Below are positions 35,861 to 42,492 of a stretch of DNA of 64,000 nt, piece by piece; within the stretch, counting starts at the first letter, position 1, and each line of letters starts with the position of its first letter. The DNA is taken from contig NZ_NPJZ01000001.1 of NCBI RefSeq assembly GCF_002245895.1, forward strand, positions 917,001-981,000, given 5' to 3'. Position numbers and translations under genes: made by a program. The DNA comes from Rhodococcus sp. OK302 (lineage in GTDB: Bacteria; Actinomycetota; Actinomycetes; Mycobacteriales; Mycobacteriaceae). The notes under the pieces are model-generated. The model worked only from the letters and a program-made list of their open reading frames with translations. It did not search any database and was not told the DNA's origin.

Positions 35861-35920
35861 GAGTCCACTGTTCCGTCACCAGGCTCTTGCGGCAACCCTT
35901 GATGGCTTTACGCTGTGGTT

Positions 35921-37045
35921 ATGGACGATCCGAGAGCACGATTCGCCGCAGCGCGGGTGGCAAGTCTGGCCACTGCCGACGCCGATGGAGTTCCGCACAT
36001 CGTGCCGCTCGTGTTCGTGGTGGTCGGAGACACCCTCTATTCCTGTGTGGACCACAAACCGAAAACCACCACAGCGCTTCGTCGGCTCCGAAATATCTCA
36101 CAGAACCCGCGAGTCAGTCTCTTGGTCGATCGTTACGACGACGACTGGTCTCAGCTCTGGTGGGTACGGGCGGATGGGGAGGCAGAGATACTCGAGCCAC
36201 AAACGCCCGAGGCAGAAAAAGCGATCGATGCATTGGCCCGGAAATACTCGCAGTACGTCGACACCCGTCCCGACGGCCAGGTGATCGCCGTCCGAAACCT
36301 ACGATGGTCGTCGTGGGAGTCTGTGCCCGGCAACATCATCAGAGAGACCCAGAACATCGTTTCTCTATCGCACGTCAACGACCCCGCGACTACGCCGATC
36401 TTTCCCGGCGATCCGGAATTTACACTGGAGATCGCTGCAACCATCGAAGCCGACGGCTACTACCTGCAGCACGTGAGGCAGGGTGAACACACCGGAACAC
36501 ATTGGGGCGCACCGGCACACTTCGAAATTGGCGGACTCACCGCAGATCAACTGGATCCGGCAGACCTGTATCTTCCGGCAGTGAAGATCGACGTACGAGG
36601 GCAGGCGGGCAACGACGCCGACTACATCCTCACTGTCGCCGATCTGGAAAAGTGGGAATCGCAGTACGGACGCATACCGAACGGGTCGGCGGTTATCGCG
36701 TGGACCGGCTGGGAGTCACATTGGGGCACAGATAGTTACGCCAACAATGATGATTCCGGCGTGTGCCATCAGCCAGGCTTCAGCATCGAAGCTGTTCAGT
36801 GGCTCCTCACCTCCGGCCGGCTGGGCAGACAGGGCGCACTGGGTATCGATACCTTCGGTCCGGACCCCGGCAATGACAGCAGCTACGCAGTCTCGAAACT
36901 TCTGTACGGTGAGCGTCGAATCAGCCTGGAAAATCTGGCCAACCTGAGCGCGCTACCCACCACCGGAGCTCACATACTGGTGGGTGGCACCGTTAATCGG
37001 GGCGGTTCGGGATCGCCGGCCACGATCTACGCGCTGATTGGCTAG
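35921..37045 (+). CDS. Fusion: F420/FMN-binding PPOX-class domain + cyclase-family domain
   Basis: 374 residues made of two unrelated folds. Residues 1-135 are a split-barrel flavin/F420-binding domain of the TIGR03668 (Rv1155-like) type (ARFAAARVASLATADADGVPHIVPLVF, NPRVSLLVDRYDDDW...LWWVRADG). Residues about 145-374 are a cyclase/kynurenine-formamidase-like domain (IVSLSHVNDP, PIFPGDPEF, EHTGTHWGAPAHF). In active members the motif is HxGTHxDxPxH; here the metal-ligand Asp is Gly196 (His190, His194 and His200 are kept), so hydrolase activity is doubtful. The ATG at 35921 lacks a Shine-Dalgarno but has TACGCT 6 nt upstream and TTGCGG 16 bp before that, fitting a leaderless start. Confidence 0.8.
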   Translation: MDDPRARFAAARVASLATADADGVPHIVPLVFVVVGDTLYSCVDHKPKTTTALRRLRNISQNPRVSLLVDRYDDDWSQLWWVRADGEAEILEPQTPEAEKAIDALARKYSQYVDTRPDGQVIAVRNLRWSSWESVPGNIIRETQNIVSLSHVNDPATTPIFPGDPEFTLEIAATIEADGYYLQHVRQGEHTGTHWGAPAHFEIGGLTADQLDPADLYLPAVKIDVRGQAGNDADYILTVADLEKWESQYGRIPNGSAVIAWTGWESHWGTDSYANNDDSGVCHQPGFSIEAVQWLLTSGRLGRQGALGIDTFGPDPGNDSSYAVSKLLYGERRISLENLANLSALPTTGAHILVGGTVNRGGSGSPATIYALIG

Positions 37046-37071: not shown

Positions 37072-37752
37072 ATGCGCCCTACTGCCTTGATCACCGGTTC
37101 CAGCCGCGGCCTCGGAGCTGCCATTGCACGCGAACTGGCACCCACCCACAACCTGCTGCTGGGTGCACGGTCCGCACGCTCTCTCGAGTCGATAACGGCT
37201 GAACTGTCCGGATCGACGCCGTGGCCCGTCGACCTCACCGATTACGACGCCGTAGCTGCCGCTGCCCGCTCGATCGATCATCTGAACGTCTTGGTTCACA
37301 ACGCCGGTATCGCAGACCTCGGCACCATCGAAGAATCCTCCGTCGACCAGTGGCGCCGCACCTTCGAAGCCAACGTCATTGCCGTCGCCGAACTGACGCG
37401 GGTACTCCTGCCCGCATTGCGCGCCGCGAACGGCCATGTCGTTCTCATCAACTCCGGTGCCGGACTACGCGCCAACGCCGGGTGGGCGTCGTATGCCGCC
37501 AGTAAGTTCGCGCTCCGCGCCTTCGGAGACGCCCTGCGACTCGAGGAGCCGTCGTTGCGCGTGACGTCCATCCACCCCGGACGCATCGATACCGACATGC
37601 AGCGCACCATAGTGGCCGGCGAGGGTGGGGATTACGATCCGACACTCTTCCTCGAGGCATCCACTGTCGCGCGAGCAGTGCGCACGGCCGTCGAAACGCC
37701 GGCCGACGCCCATCCGACGGAGATAGTCCTCCGGCCTACGGGGACCCGATGA
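37072..37752 (+). CDS. Short-chain dehydrogenase/reductase
   Basis: 226-residue SDR oxidoreductase. Rossmann glycine motif TGSSRGLGAAIA, NNAG-equivalent VHNAGIAD, catalytic Ser in INSGAG, and YAASK (Tyr/Lys) are all intact; the cofactor is probably NADP(H). TAGGCT lies 6 nt before the ATG, so the transcript is probably leaderless. Its stop overlaps the start of the TIGR04222 gene (ATGA), making it the first gene of a four-gene coupled operon with a DUF692 enzyme. Whether it acts on the same product is inference from coupling only. Confidence 0.9.
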   Translation: MRPTALITGSSRGLGAAIARELAPTHNLLLGARSARSLESITAELSGSTPWPVDLTDYDAVAAAARSIDHLNVLVHNAGIADLGTIEESSVDQWRRTFEANVIAVAELTRVLLPALRAANGHVVLINSGAGLRANAGWASYAASKFALRAFGDALRLEEPSLRVTSIHPGRIDTDMQRTIVAGEGGDYDPTLFLEASTVARAVRTAVETPADAHPTEIVLRPTGTR

Positions 37753-38642
37753 AGAGCGACACTTGGGGAATCCCGAGTCAGACGTTTCTGCTCTGGTACC
37801 TCGTGGGAGCAACTGTCGCCGTTGCCCTCTCGTTGACGCTTCGGATGCGCGCCCGGGAATCTCCCGGCAGAGCAACGCGCCCACTGACCCCTCCGGAAGT
37901 CGGTGCCTTAACCAGTGATTTTCAGGCGATTCTCGCGTCGGTAACCATCCTCCGCAGTGCTGAAATGATCACGACCGGAGGGAAGATCAAGCGCGCACTG
38001 TTCGCGCAAGACAAGCAGCACCTCGACTGGTTCACCCGGACGGTCCACGAACAGCTCGGCAAAGGCTCGGTACCGCTCCGCCATGTTCGCCTGGTAAAGA
38101 GGCTGAATACCCCACTAGCTCAACTACGTTCAACGCTGACGGACGAGGGCTATCTTCTGCGCCCACAAAGCGGTGTCGAGGCTGCCATACGGATCGCCCC
38201 GATCCTGGCTGTGATTGCTGTCGGCGTCATTCGACTCGTCGCAGGTGCCGCCGGTGGTCACCCTGTCGGCTTTTTACTCGCAACCATGGCCGTCTTGGTG
38301 GCACTGATCATCTACCTACGCACCGACACTCGACGAACCAGATTCGGAGATGCAGAACTCGAGCGCCTCAAACAAGAGAACTCATACCTCTCACCGCGTT
38401 TACGGCCCTCGTTCGCAAGCTACGGACCTTCATATGCGGGCCTGTCTGCTGCCCTCTTCGGGACCGGGGCACTGGTTCTCATCGATCCATCCCTGGCCAG
38501 TGCCGTATCGGCTAGCCCCGGAGCCGGCACTGGCAGCGGCGGGAGTTCGAGCGGATCCGACGGCGGTGGCGGTGGCGGTGGCGGTGACAGCAGTTGTGGT
38601 AGCTCCGACAGCGGCGGTGGTTCCAGCGGATGCGGCGGGTGA
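37749..38642 (+). CDS. TIGR04222-type membrane protein with Gly/Ser/Cys-rich tail
   Basis: 297 residues. A TM helix at about 12-32 (FLLWYLVGATVAVALSLTLRM) is followed by a conserved cytoplasmic region (LTSDFQAILASVTILRSAEMITTGGKIKRALF...LDWFTRTVHEQL). TM helices at about 145-165 and 170-190 and a hydrophobic segment near 235 follow. The last about 45 residues are almost pure Gly/Ser, ending in DSSCGSSDSGGGSSGCGG with Cys283 and Cys295. As I recall, actinobacterial TIGR04222 proteins often sit beside DUF692 genes and end in Cys/Gly repeats. The next gene here is DUF692, overlapping by 13 nt. The tail looks like a modification substrate, which is inference. Confidence 0.8.
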   Translation: MKSDTWGIPSQTFLLWYLVGATVAVALSLTLRMRARESPGRATRPLTPPEVGALTSDFQAILASVTILRSAEMITTGGKIKRALFAQDKQHLDWFTRTVHEQLGKGSVPLRHVRLVKRLNTPLAQLRSTLTDEGYLLRPQSGVEAAIRIAPILAVIAVGVIRLVAGAAGGHPVGFLLATMAVLVALIIYLRTDTRRTRFGDAELERLKQENSYLSPRLRPSFASYGPSYAGLSAALFGTGALVLIDPSLASAVSASPGAGTGSGGSSSGSDGGGGGGGGDSSCGSSDSGGGSSGCGG

Positions 38643-39463
38643 TCCTGCAAGGGTTGGGTATCGGCTGGCGCCCTGAAATTGCCGGGATAATCGCGCAACT
38701 CGACAACCTCGCATTCTGTGAGGTGATTGCAGAATCCATCGGTAGCGCCGCGCCTCCCGAACTGGAACGATTGGCCGTTCCGGTTATCCCTCATGGCATC
38801 TCACTGTCGCTGGGCGGCGCCGAGATGCTGGACCCTCGCCGCATCGATCACCTGGCGCGGGTGGCTGAGTTGCTCGACGCTCCGATGGTCAGTGAGCACA
38901 TCGCATTTGTCCGGGCCGGCGGCATCGAGGCCGGGCACCTGCTCCCGGTACCCCGCTCCTATGAAGCTCTGGATGCACTCACCCGCAACATCACCCGAAC
39001 CCAGGACTCCTTACCGGCACCACTGGCGGTGGAGAACATTGCGGCGCTCTTCGACTGGCCCGACAACGAGCTGACGGAAGCAGAATTCCTGTCCGAGCTG
39101 ATCGAACGTACCGGCGTGCATCTCGTTCTGGACATTGCCAATGTGTACGCCAATGTTCTTAATCGACAACGTGATCCGTGGACGGAATTGAGCCGGCTAC
39201 CGCTCGATCACATTGCCTACTGCCACATCGCGGGCGGCAGTTTTCGCAACGGTAGATATCACGACACTCACACCGATCCCGTACCCGAACCGGTCTTGGA
39301 AATGCTCACCCGTCTCACCGCGGAAGGGCATCACCCGGCAGTCATGCTCGAGCGAGACGGCAACTATCCGCCGGCGTTGGAACTGCTTGACGAACTTGAT
39401 GCCATCGCCGATGCAGCCGGCCTCAGCCGCATCACCGCCGGAACCCACTGGTCACGCGCATGA
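38630..39463 (+). CDS. DUF692 family enzyme (MNIO, multinuclear iron oxidase-type)
   Basis: 277-residue TIM-barrel protein of DUF692, the family of MbnB and TglH, which use a di/tri-iron centre to remodel cysteines in ribosomal peptides. Family signatures are present: GLGIGWRPEI, FCEVIAES, PVIPHGISLSLGG (His55), MVSEHIAF, LAVENIAALF, LVLDIANVYAN, IAYCHIAGG and DTHTDPVPEPV, so the His/Asp/Glu metal sphere appears complete. It overlaps the TIGR04222 gene by 13 nt and the following 59-codon gene by 4 nt. The coupled neighbour has a Cys-containing tail, so cysteine modification of a membrane protein is the leading hypothesis. The reaction is unproven. Confidence 0.88.
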   Translation: MRRVILQGLGIGWRPEIAGIIAQLDNLAFCEVIAESIGSAAPPELERLAVPVIPHGISLSLGGAEMLDPRRIDHLARVAELLDAPMVSEHIAFVRAGGIEAGHLLPVPRSYEALDALTRNITRTQDSLPAPLAVENIAALFDWPDNELTEAEFLSELIERTGVHLVLDIANVYANVLNRQRDPWTELSRLPLDHIAYCHIAGGSFRNGRYHDTHTDPVPEPVLEMLTRLTAEGHHPAVMLERDGNYPPALELLDELDAIADAAGLSRITAGTHWSRA

Positions 39464-39639
39464 GCAGTCTCGAGAATCGCCAGGCCGCCCTGGTTCGCGC
39501 CCTTGTCGACGGCACCCAGCCACCTCCGGGATTCGACCGCGATGCCCTCGCCGCGGCATCGGAAGTACTGGCTCGCAAACGCTCACGGAAGACGCCTCCA
39601 GTTCGTCGCCGGTGGTATCAGAGTCTATTACGTAAGTGA
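39460..39639 (+). CDS. 59-residue protein after DUF692, possible MNIO partner
   Basis: ATGA overlap with the DUF692 stop. The product begins MSSLENRQAALVRALVDGTQ and continues PPPGFDRDALAAASEVLARK, then a basic C-terminus (KRSRKTPPVRRRWYQSLLRK). The helical LVRALV...PPGFD pattern resembles the small partner proteins that accompany DUF692 enzymes, which help bind substrate; this likeness is by eye only. Its last 12 nt overlap the 3' end of the convergent encapsulin gene. Too short for most ORF cut-offs, but coding is supported by the overlap, an unbroken frame and codon use like its neighbours. Confidence 0.72.
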   Translation: MSSLENRQAALVRALVDGTQPPPGFDRDALAAASEVLARKRSRKTPPVRRRWYQSLLRK

Positions 39640-40422
39640 GACAACAGCTTCACTCGTGTACATCAGGAAGGTCATCGACTCCTGGAAGTACAGTTCCACC
39701 GAGTTTGCGTCATGAGACAGGTAACCAATCGACAGGTCTTGCCCGATATGCAGCTCGTAATCCCCACCGCGAGTAGACATCAGGAATGCACCGTCGATAG
39801 CCGGCGCCCAGATGATGTCGCCGTCGAGTACGCGTCGGATGTGCTCGCGAATGGGGTAGCCGTGATCGGAGGTCTCGTTGATCTGGGTGAAAGCTTCGGC
39901 GTTGAGCAGCAACGAGTACGGCCCGTTGACGCCAGCCAAACGCAAGGACGTGAGGGCCTGGCTGATGGCCTCCGGGTAGTCCTTGGCGTCGGCGGGCAGC
40001 GCCAGTTCAGGGTTGGATCCGCTAGCGCGAACACCCGTGATGTTCGCGGCCGGGTATCCCTCGAACACGGCGCGGTCCTCGGCAAACGCGATCTTCTTCG
40101 CGGCATCTTTCACCGGCTGCCAATCGGAATCCTTTGCGCCACGCTCGACGTCGTCGATTGCCTGACGACTGACCGTGAACGGCACCCGCAGCTCGATGAT
40201 CGGCTGCGACTGGCGGGCGTGGGCGATCACACCGTCCGCGAGTGAGCTGATGGGAACCTGATGGCCCAACGCAACGCAGGCTAGATCAACACCCGCCGGA
40301 CCTTCGACGTCGACGACGCGTCGGCCGGCCACGTGACGCTTGAAGGTGCGGCTGGCTTCTTCCTCGATCTCGGCCCACGCTGCTGCCGAAACGGGTGCTA
40401 GATCGCGGTGCAGATTTGTCAT
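39628..40422 (-). CDS. Family 1 encapsulin shell protein
   Basis: 264-residue HK97-fold protein that self-assembles into an icosahedral nanocompartment (linocin M18-like). Recognised by MTNLHRDLAPVSAAAWAEIEEEA, the GRRVVDVEGPAGVDLACVALGH segment, the PFTVSRQAIDDVERGAKDSDW region, and the C-terminal DLSIGYLSHDANSVELYFQESMTFLMYTSEAVV. It is translationally coupled to the upstream DyP peroxidase (TAATG overlap), whose C-terminal peptide is the encapsulation signal. Rhodococcal encapsulins of this size are experimentally known. The 3' end overlaps the convergent 59-codon gene by 12 bp, leaving no room for a conventional terminator. Confidence 0.96.
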   Translation of the reverse strand: MTNLHRDLAPVSAAAWAEIEEEASRTFKRHVAGRRVVDVEGPAGVDLACVALGHQVPISSLADGVIAHARQSQPIIELRVPFTVSRQAIDDVERGAKDSDWQPVKDAAKKIAFAEDRAVFEGYPAANITGVRASGSNPELALPADAKDYPEAISQALTSLRLAGVNGPYSLLLNAEAFTQINETSDHGYPIREHIRRVLDGDIIWAPAIDGAFLMSTRGGDYELHIGQDLSIGYLSHDANSVELYFQESMTFLMYTSEAVVSLT

Positions 40423-41492
40423 TACCAGTCACTCCTTTTGAGGCTGCCGATTCCGAGAGAACCGTCGGAGTTCGGCGCTGTGGACTTCGATGCGGGCACA
40501 AGACGAGTCGGTAGATCCGGGGGGTCGTCCAGAAAATCTGCCGTCGGAACAAAGAAGTTGATTCCGGTTACAGCAGTGGAGAATTCGAGAATCCGGTCGG
40601 TGTTTCCGGGTGGGTTCCCGATGAACATGTTGGTCAGCATCTGCTCGGTCACGGTCGGCGACGCCGAATACCCGATGAAGTACGTGCCCATCTCAGACGA
40701 TCCGACGTGGCCGAACGGCATGTTGTCACGCAGGATCTGAATCTGCTGCCCGGACTCGTCCTCGATGACCGTGAGCGCAGTGTGCGCGTTGGGCGGCTTA
40801 GTCTCGTCGTCCATCTCGAGGTCTTCGAGTTTTGAACGCCCGATGACGTTTTCCTGTTCGGAGGTAGGCAGAGTGTTCCACCCGGACATGTCGTGGAGGT
40901 ACTTCTGCACAATGACGTAGCTACTGCCCGCAAACTCGGGATCTTCGTCACCGATCGTAACGGCAACGAATGCTGCTTGCCCCGAAGGATTTTCGGTCCC
41001 GTCGACAAAGCCCATCAGATCCCGTTGCTCAAAGTACTTGAACCCGTGGACCTCGTCGATCACCGTCGCCGCCCCAGCCAATCGGTTCGTCACAACAGTC
41101 GCGTACTCGAAACACAGGTCCATCTGCCGGGCACGGATGTGAAACAGCAGATCACCCGACGTTCGGGGTGCGTGATGAGTGTCGCCGGTCAATTCGATAA
41201 ACGGATGTAATTCCGCTGGTCTCGGCCCCTCGAACAGTCGATCCCAGGCATCGGAGCCGATTCCGACGACGGTAGCCAACCCGCCCGCCGGCACCCGGAA
41301 TCCGATGGATCGCTGCAGGCCGGAGAGGTCCGCCAGGATGTCGTGAACAGCCTGATCACCGCCCTCGTCGATGGTGAAGACGAGGAAGATCGCGGCTTCG
41401 GTGAGAGGAGTCAGCAGAGGCTGCGGTATCGGCGGCAGTGACGTTCCAGGCAGGGTTGTCTGGGCCTCATCGATTGCACTCGTTTCCGCCAT
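40422..41492 (-). CDS. dypB: DyP-type peroxidase, encapsulin cargo
   Basis: 356-residue haem peroxidase of the DyP family (B-type). The distal-site motif GFVDGTENP, the QKYLHDMSGW region likely to include the haem ligand, and the conserved Arg in ILRDNMPFG are visible. The C-terminus, after a flexible Pro/Ser linker, is DGSLGIGSLKRSDW, matching the conserved peptide that directs cargo into encapsulin shells. I chose the ATG at 41492 (MAETSAIDEA) with GAGG just upstream; a 46-residue upstream extension in frame has no support. It forms a two-gene operon with encapsulin. In Rhodococcus jostii the homologous DypB acts on lignin-related phenols and is packaged in encapsulin. Confidence 0.95.
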   Translation of the reverse strand: MAETSAIDEAQTTLPGTSLPPIPQPLLTPLTEAAIFLVFTIDEGGDQAVHDILADLSGLQRSIGFRVPAGGLATVVGIGSDAWDRLFEGPRPAELHPFIELTGDTHHAPRTSGDLLFHIRARQMDLCFEYATVVTNRLAGAATVIDEVHGFKYFEQRDLMGFVDGTENPSGQAAFVAVTIGDEDPEFAGSSYVIVQKYLHDMSGWNTLPTSEQENVIGRSKLEDLEMDDETKPPNAHTALTVIEDESGQQIQILRDNMPFGHVGSSEMGTYFIGYSASPTVTEQMLTNMFIGNPPGNTDRILEFSTAVTGINFFVPTADFLDDPPDLPTRLVPASKSTAPNSDGSLGIGSLKRSDW

Positions 41493-41535
41493 GCACCTCA
41501 GTATGGACGATTCGGACACTAGATGCAGCGGACGA

Positions 41536-42492
41536 TCAAGGCGTCGCAGCGTGCGCCCCCGGATCGAAGCCGGCGGGAATCTCGTAGATCCGGCCGTCGA
41601 ACCCGGCGCGGTAGAGATGGCCGGCCGCAAAACCTGAGGTGCCGCGGCCGTATGTCAGCACACTCGATGCTTGCAGTCCGCTGGTAAGCGCGCAGTACTG
41701 GCCGGGCCCGTCGATGCGCCACACCTCGCCACTGATATCCGTCGGGACGATCGGACGATCGTAGGAGTCGAGCGTCAAACCGTCAGGTGCAGCAAAGGTT
41801 TCAAGCCCACCGAGATCGACCAACGATTCGGAGTATCCCGGATTGTCGACAGAGATACGGCTGACTCCGGGATTGGCGAACGTACGCGAGACGTACAGCC
41901 AGCGATTGTCCGAACTCAGCGCCGCACCGTTTGCGCTCGGAAGATTCGCCCACGCCGGGTCGACGGCACCGTTCGGACTCACTTTGCCGATCAGCGACCC
42001 GAAATCATTGGTAGCGAAGATTGTTCCGTCGTGTGCCACTGCCAAGCCGTTTGCGGCGCTCAAACCGCCCGCAAACGGCGTAACCGCGCCGGTATTGACA
42101 TCGACCCGGGCTACGGACGCCTGCCGCGTCAGATCGCCGATCAGAACCCCCGCATTGGTTCCGGTTCCCACCAGCAGTGAACCGTCGGGACTCCACGCGA
42201 GCGCGCCGGCGCCACCGGGCACCGTCGCTATCGGAACTGCGGCCTGACCCGGGGCGTCGACGCGGAAGATTTGTCGGCTCACCAGGTCCGTCGCATACAG
42301 ACGGCCCTGCCCGTCGACGGTGACTCCCTCGAGGGCGGCACCGGGAATCTGTGCGCTGAGAATTGCCGGCGACGACCCCGGGCAAAGCTGCGCCGCACTG
42401 GCGCCGGAAACACCCAGCGCGAGAATCGAACCGGCAACAAGTACTCCGGTGATACCAACACGAATACCGCGATCGACGATTCTGGTTCGCAT
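41536..42492 (-). CDS. Secreted SMP-30/NHL-like beta-propeller protein
   Basis: 318 residues. Signal peptide about 1-34 (GVLVAGSILALGVSGASA). The mature protein consists of propeller blades: LEGVTVDGQGRLYATDL, GALAWSPDGSLLVGTG, ANGLAVAHDGTIFATNDF, GAALSSDNRWLYVSRTF and APDGLTLDSYDRPIVPTDI. This resembles SMP-30/gluconolactonase-like lactonases. TACGGT lies 7 nt upstream of the ATG, consistent with a leaderless message. Whether it is an enzyme (lactonase) or a binding protein is unresolved; it stands alone, 43 bp upstream of the DyP gene on the same strand. Confidence 0.78.
   Translation of the reverse strand: MRTRIVDRGIRVGITGVLVAGSILALGVSGASAAQLCPGSSPAILSAQIPGAALEGVTVDGQGRLYATDLVSRQIFRVDAPGQAAVPIATVPGGAGALAWSPDGSLLVGTGTNAGVLIGDLTRQASVARVDVNTGAVTPFAGGLSAANGLAVAHDGTIFATNDFGSLIGKVSPNGAVDPAWANLPSANGAALSSDNRWLYVSRTFANPGVSRISVDNPGYSESLVDLGGLETFAAPDGLTLDSYDRPIVPTDISGEVWRIDGPGQYCALTSGLQASSVLTYGRGTSGFAAGHLYRAGFDGRIYEIPAGFDPGAHAATP

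Follow-up and report, generated by a model that had tools for sequence, protein, structure and literature searches.

In the genome of Rhodococcus sp. OK302, we identified a conserved three-gene cassette that encodes a membrane protein of the TIGR04222 family, an enzyme of the MNIO (DUF692) family, and a 59-residue protein that appears, from its homology, to be a shortened MNIO partner. The cassette lies in a 64,000-nucleotide stretch of contig NZ_NPJZ01000001.1 (positions 917,001 to 981,000 of the forward strand), which we call the window and whose own coordinates we use for its genes. We consider it probable, though well short of certain, that the MNIO and its minimal partner oxidise cysteines in the C-terminal tail of the TIGR04222 protein and that the tail is then displayed outside the membrane. 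Subsets of TIGR04222 membrane proteins have already been proposed as MNIO substrates via a C-terminal Ser/Gly/Cys segment (Antoine et al. 2025, PMC12452194), and the idea of the tail as substrate is therefore published and not new. If it is true, common soil actinobacteria have membrane-anchored proteins in which MNIO enzymes install metal-binding heterocycles, and 59 residues are enough for an MNIO partner.

A conserved three-gene cassette

The core of the locus consists of the following features:

37749..38642, + strand: TIGR04222 membrane protein, 297 aa, proposed MNIO substrate (TIGR04222, 115.9 bits; cut-off 43)
38511..38639, + strand: C-terminal low-complexity tail of this protein, residues 255-297, with Cys283 and Cys295 and a -CGG end (read from the sequence)
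38630..39463, + strand: MNIO/DUF692 enzyme, 277 aa as annotated (PF05114, 254.7 bits; cut-off 25)
39460..39639, + strand: 59-aa putative minimal MNIO partner of family PF26136, with the N-terminal module and a basic C-terminus, the middle lost

A preliminary description of this DNA had reported four open reading frames (ORFs), namely these three and an overlapping short-chain dehydrogenase/reductase (SDR) gene upstream; all four lie where it had placed them and match the expected profiles. As annotated, the SDR, TIGR04222, MNIO, and 59-aa genes overlap by 4, 13, and 4 nt in turn, and the last of them shares 12 nt with an encapsulin gene that runs convergently. The 13-nt value, also given in that description, depends on the ATG at 38630 as MNIO start. 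In the relatives at loci L018 and L022, the MNIO starts at an ATGA that overlaps the preceding stop by 4 nt, and because these starts align with the window's GTGA at 38639, the GTG there, which would give 274 aa and a 4-nt overlap, is the more probable start; all three overlaps in the set would then be 4 nt. Start codons were assigned automatically, and some protein lengths are approximate.

The whole genome (6.79 Mb) contains one MNIO match and one TIGR04222 match. Across actinobacteria, TIGR04222, MNIO, and partner genes are found together repeatedly, which argues that the set is more than a chance arrangement; we conclude that the core system is a real and conserved cassette of these three genes. 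Among 28 genomes of the genus, a TIGR04222 protein scored over the cut-off in 15, and the same 15 carry an MNIO like the window's; a sixteenth MNIO-bearing genome (G019) has a divergent enzyme (33% identity) and no TIGR04222. The family (301 genomes) has TIGR04222 in 68 genomes and an MNIO of at least 230 bits in 68, with both in 65 and three genomes holding each alone (Fisher p 2.7e-58, kinship ignored); none of the 17 family genomes with lower-scoring MNIOs only has a TIGR04222 over the cut-off. A similar pairing is seen in the 131 genomes of the G482 family, where TIGR04222 occurs in 92, MNIO in 89, and both in 88, leaving four genomes with TIGR04222 alone (G546, G599, G602, and G608) and one with MNIO alone. 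TIGR04222 scoring covered 9 (family), 11 (class), and 20 (G482 family) first-look candidates per genome, a depth at which genes can be missed.

The MNIO enzyme

The window MNIO retains a full set of candidate iron ligands: H55, H90, E135, D168, N171, H199, D212, H214, and E241 (numbering from ATG 38630). All eight alignable iron ligands of TglH are identical in it, and the ninth, TglH His71, corresponds to H55 by motif only. Among equivalog profiles, BufB (177.8 bits; cut-off 310) and HvfB (153.7 bits; cut-off 360) score best, the MbnB profile yields 25.8 bits only, and the enzyme stays below every equivalog cut-off. BufB/HvfB-type enzymes form thiooxazoles on cysteines (PMC12452194, PMC13419390, PMC13097082). 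Because their profiles score best yet below the cut-offs, proximity to these enzymes suggests thiooxazole chemistry for the window MNIO.

A shortened partner protein

The 59-aa protein had no profile match in two local libraries, a local Pfam copy included. At most loci, the gene after the MNIO encodes a protein that matches its first 42 residues, and PF26136.1 is precomputed for P0207, a 59-aa protein from another record that is 97% identical to the window's. This family, whose name we take to be 'SCO6045-like', stands beside PF05114 in the 120 matches listed of 6346 to a Streptomyces-type MNIO-partner fusion. By this homology, the window protein is a shortened MNIO partner of family PF26136, whose members elsewhere are about 100-175 aa long or fused to the MNIO; compared with the closest long form, that of L018 (107 aa), it lacks 48 middle residues and keeps both ends. 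The small gene beside the MNIO, whose conservation had been raised in the preliminary description, proves to be widely kept: a partner is present or fused in 63 of 64 genome-contig loci (41 long, 21 short, 1 fused, 1 none), in 65 of 68 family loci (48 long, 17 short, 3 none), and in 32 of 35 class loci with the MNIO in the stretch (9 long, 23 fused, 3 none).

The arrangement of the partner varies further. The 23 fusions in the class include L242:1268-2656, with PF26136 found in relatives; in L077, from a Polyangiaceae metagenome-assembled genome, the MNIO is fused to a short-form partner only. In genus g6 (L178, L187, L190, and L195), the partner makes up the N-terminal portion of a longer frame that resembles a membrane protein, and the one such frame tested matched no NCBIfam family.

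On a tree of 69 MNIO rows (18 with a short partner, 48 with a long one, 3 with none), four changes are required to explain the short state, and branches with good support force every one of them. A tree constrained to keep the short forms in one group was rejected (approximately unbiased test, p-AU 2e-9), as was one joining the window pair to the largest short clade (p-AU 6e-4), with three long-branch MNIO rows excluded from both tests. Since regaining the lost, homologous middle part is implausible, we read these changes as four separate shortenings. The loss itself appears to have been internal, because the long form of L018 shares the C-terminal 'RRxWYQxLLRK' and a similar encapsulin overlap; shortening by the encapsulin junction was rejected for the same reason.

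Could the 59-aa gene instead be the decaying remnant of a partner, beside an MNIO that is inactive or works without one? The 48 residues missing relative to L018 would fit such decay, as would the result of a genome search for a second partner gene, which found none, and a dN/dS (ratio of nonsynonymous to synonymous substitution rates) of about 0.7 in the last 17 codons. Against the nearest short relative, however, dN/dS is 0.20 over the whole gene and 0.13 over the first 42 codons, and 0.20 for the MNIO, all from few changes; a nearly identical 59-aa protein exists in another record; and short forms occupy 18 of the 69 MNIO rows at four places on the tree. We regard decay as very unlikely, and the short partner looks constrained. 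The invariant residues of 22 aligned partners all fall within the N-terminal module that the 59-aa form keeps.

Better characterised partners hint at what this module might do. In TglI, removal of the first helix or of helix 3 abolishes TglH binding, loss of the C-terminal RRE domain abolishes substrate binding, and the N-terminal helices bind the enzyme (PMC10880893); HvfC is required for the active mixed-valent iron state (PMC13419390). By its length, the 59-aa form can hardly hold an RRE fold, and a search of solved structures for partner homologues returned low-complexity or chance-level matches only. By analogy with TglI and HvfC, we infer that the role of the short partner is to activate the MNIO, and that substrate recognition is not its own task. 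The preliminary description had cast the 59-residue protein as a recognition partner. That it is a partner of the MNIO agrees with its PF26136 homology and its place, but recognition is doubtful, because the 59-aa form has lost most of what follows the N-terminal module, while in TglI it is the C-terminal RRE that binds substrate. Separate losses of nearly all but this module would part enzyme activation from substrate recognition, and the short partner would offer an experimental handle on what a partner does for an MNIO.

The tail of the membrane protein

The window membrane protein has no cysteine upstream of residue 283 and just two in its last 15 residues, Cys283 and Cys295, as had been noted before. 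Among Cys-tailed ORFs of MNIO genomes, those with an exact -CGG end number 85 of 92 in the window's family, 14 of 15 in the sample from the G482 family, and 10 of 32 elsewhere in the class. Because the last cysteine stands at a fixed distance from the C-terminus (three residues from it in 86 of 92 family proteins) and spacing elsewhere is variable, the C-terminal end of the tail seems to be read by some protein. Beside the MNIO, the -CGG could partly reflect the overlapping start codon; six family copies distant from the MNIO or on another contig all end in CGG too.

This fixed terminus bears on the product as well. The tail might be an MNIO substrate whose product is not a thiooxazole but, for example, a change limited to the cysteine near the C-terminus (TglH acts on a C-terminal cysteine), an oxazolone/thioamide, or backbone cleavage. 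A terminus that appears to be read, and an enzyme that scores below every equivalog cut-off, would both suit such a product. The BufB and HvfB profiles nevertheless score best, and a change at the terminal cysteine alone sits poorly with the 81 of 92 Cys-tailed family ORFs that have 3-8 cysteines within their last 60 residues. We view this alternative as possible, if doubtful.

By eye, transmembrane (TM) stretches are predicted at about 13-32, 150-168, 174-191, and 228-247, with a domain of about 32-148 between TM1 and TM2. Hydropathy and charge were averaged over 93 aligned TIGR04222 proteins. Per protein, Lys+Arg number only 0.25 at the N-terminus, 0.65 in the hairpin between TM2 and TM3, and 0.1 in the tail, against 4.2 after TM1, 11.4 in the domain at 60-145, and 7.5 after TM3; the last TM stretch is moderately hydrophobic (about 1.3). 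Under the charge rule, this distribution favours an N-terminus outside, a predicted main domain in the cytosol, and a tail outside. Solved structures searched for TIGR04222 homologues gave low-complexity or chance-level matches only, with MarR-type structures matching the putative cytosolic domain weakly (E 0.28 and 0.73). Tandem TIGR04222 paralogues with differing numbers of tail cysteines stand beside a single MNIO in L018, L022, L024, L053, and L079.

Tail cysteines and the presence of an MNIO

In the family, at least one cysteine follows the profile end in 93 of 95 TIGR04222 ORFs of MNIO genomes and in 0 of 3 ORFs, from two genera, of MNIO-less genomes. Each exception comes from a genome that also has a Cys-tailed paralogue. 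Among the 93, two frames are doubtful: G184 2351637 is a merged frame, and G298 3360933, probably a frameshift, has one cysteine outside a Gly/Ser context. The tail motif [GSDNC]C[GSC], scored in the last 40 residues across family and class, occurs in 124 of 151 ORFs in MNIO genomes versus 2 of 23 in MNIO-less ones; of these two, G375 stands on a contig that ends where an MNIO would be expected, and G470 appears to be a wrong frame. Gly/Asp-rich tails without cysteine are kept by five MNIO-less ORFs of family f20 (G339, G356, G397, G407, and G426), the family from which such tails mainly come. Family TIGR04222 genes that lie at a distance from the MNIO or sit on a different contig, some perhaps through assembly breaks, have a Cys tail in all six cases. 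In the G482 family, where tails were sampled from 15 of the 88 MNIO-bearing genomes, the motif is present in 15 of 16 ORFs of MNIO genomes; the five ORFs from four MNIO-less genomes comprise three without the motif, G599 with a single cysteine, and one copy of G546 that went unread for its internal stops.

Several observations weigh against the tail as an MNIO substrate. The link between the two families is looser in the class sample of 246 genomes (both in 45, TIGR04222 alone in 19, MNIO alone in 6). According to Antoine et al., a C-proximal cysteine is missing from over a quarter of TIGR04222 proteins, and 490 of 1372 TIGR04222 genomes, about a third, have no MNIO (PMC12452194). Having two cysteines, as in the window, is shared by 11 of 92 Cys-tailed family ORFs, the other 81 having three or more. 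If any cysteine is counted that lies in a low-complexity tail 14 or more residues long, the contrast becomes 127 of 129 versus 6 of 12 in MNIO-less genomes, several of those six having their cysteine upstream of the last 40 residues. The MNIO-less G599 keeps one tail cysteine. In genus g49, taken as Streptomyces from the names of its homologues, 12 of 18 TIGR04222 ORFs downstream of an MNIO have no tail cysteine; a routine lack of cysteines beside DUF692, the pattern that the preliminary description had named as contrary to its reading, is thus seen in g49 and not in the window's family. Ten such g49 genomes, three of them (G354, G369, and G443) also read gene by gene, show no Cys-tailed frame in the fetched stretch; four of the ten (G369, G396, G416, and G425) have an unlinked TIGR04222 with one cysteine near the end. 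These tail-less Streptomyces copies beside an MNIO speak against a universal rule. On the TIGR04222 tree, from which bodies under 170 aa and duplicates (in one run also G375) were left out, only 3-4 independent pairs fall on supported branches, of which about two agree and essentially none oppose, and the phylogeny-corrected association of tail cysteines with MNIO gives a median sign test p of 0.5.

The association is therefore strong in raw counts and consistent in direction, but not significant after correction for phylogeny; to that extent, comparative evidence supports the earlier proposal of the membrane-protein tail as the MNIO target. Streptomyces-type MNIO loci with a tail-less TIGR04222 downstream include L212, L217, L242, and similar ones.

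Such loci would also be expected if the tail were never modified, its free thiols binding metal or delivering iron and the membrane protein serving as scaffold or anchor for an MNIO and partner that act elsewhere. It is less clear on that account why Cys motifs should be rare without an MNIO (2 of 23), even where Gly-rich tails remain, or where the other substrate would be encoded: among gene families other than TIGR04222 and the partner, none exceeds 18 of 64 loci, and those that are larger seem tied to particular lineages. An unmodified tail strikes us as rather unlikely.

Proposed mechanism

In the reading that we favour, oxidation of the tail cysteines, the TIGR04222 protein would keep its large domain in the cytosol, with the Gly/Ser/Cys tail behind the moderately hydrophobic last TM stretch. 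A partner trimmed down to an enzyme-docking module would activate an MNIO in the cytosol, which would oxidise the cysteines of the tail, the one at three residues from the end among them, probably to 5-thiooxazoles. If the MNIO is cytosolic, modification would precede crossing of the membrane; the modified tail would then be displayed outside, where it would probably bind copper or another metal.

More tentatively, and with a good deal less confidence than in the reading just given, the partner may be an activator-only module of ~40 residues (L4, Q8, L11, A14, P22, G24, K40, and R41 in L018 numbering), with the cytosolic domain of the substrate presenting its own tail to an MNIO that reads the -CGG before the tail is flipped out. 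If so, a recognition element, a membrane anchor, and a metal-binding prosthetic tail would be united in a single chain.

Neighbouring genes

Two genes touch the cassette:

37072..37752, + strand: SDR family oxidoreductase, PRK08219-like, 226 aa (NF006073, 326.8 bits; cut-off 218)
39628..40422, - strand: family-1 encapsulin shell gene, convergent (NF041155, 351.7 bits)

We clustered the neighbours of 64 loci from ORFs of at least 100 aa that passed a codon filter, considering the 28 largest clusters, each represented by six locus names. TIGR04222 was recovered in 56 of the 64 loci, and the partner is undercounted by the length filter. ABC-transporter-like and response-regulator-like clusters, of 10 loci each, span genera.

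A close homologue of the SDR (89-95% identity) lies within 6 kb in 3 of the 64 loci, all Rhodococcus, and also in the split locus L128. Because such homologues stand near the set in Rhodococcus relatives only, the SDR was rejected as a tailoring enzyme or core part, a role that the preliminary description had offered it. Counting against this rejection are weak SDR matches (25-30% identity) 1-3 kb downstream in seven loci, which we take as unrelated to the window SDR; the clustering contains an SDR cluster of 8 loci.

Actinoplanes-type loci with distant SDR-family genes: L036, L040, L042, L045, L048, L057, L064

Family-1 encapsulin and DyP peroxidase genes (39628-41630, - strand) run convergently into the set. 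This pair is found downstream in 7 of the 64 loci, all Rhodococcus, and was rejected as a functional part of the system. In R. erythropolis-type genomes, a ~6.6 kb block between a TIGR04222 pair and the MNIO (L128:2964-9447) reads like a bkd operon with a regulator, as named by eye. On the other side of the window's set, a TIGR03668-type F420-dependent PPOX domain is fused to a PF04199 cyclase domain (35915-37045, + strand).

Relation to known systems

We recognised no experimental work on TIGR04222 proteins in the literature, as judged by titles and abstract openings. The window most resembles the TIGR04222-MNIO clusters of Antoine et al. (PMC12452194), with which it shares a C-proximal Ser/Gly/Cys tail, an adjacent MNIO, a substrate without a signal peptide, and a non-DUF2063 partner. 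It differs in the size of that partner, 59 residues against 115-276 in the four models of the PME-type 2 proteins that are proposed as partners there. It differs also in topology: those authors describe large periplasmic domain(s), whereas the charge rule here favours a large domain in the cytosol. They propose a periplasmic Ser/Gly/Cys segment. Many of their clusters seemingly have no partner gene, and their adjamnio-V cluster is made up of 'very small proteins' encoded after MNIOs, for which no function was predicted; short partners like the window's may be among these. The available portion of that paper contains no test of whether tail cysteines follow MNIO presence, and its main text has no match to 'CGG'.

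Bufferins (BufABC) and oxazolin (HvfABC) are likewise built around a related MNIO, cysteine targets, and an exported product. They use precursors with a Sec signal and DUF2063 partners, whereas the window has a polytopic membrane protein and a putative PF26136 partner; the 59-aa protein has no DUF2063 match, and the genes adjoining the MNIO are those for the TIGR04222 and 59-aa proteins. TglHI, which makes 3-thiaglutamate, and MbnBC, which makes methanobactin, share with the window conserved iron ligands and the pairing of an enzyme with a partner, but TglI has a substrate-binding RRE domain, for which the 59-aa partner is too short. Set beside these systems, what is new here is a minimal partner that appears to have been shortened repeatedly, a fixed -CGG terminus, and the predicted cytosolic placement of the large domain.

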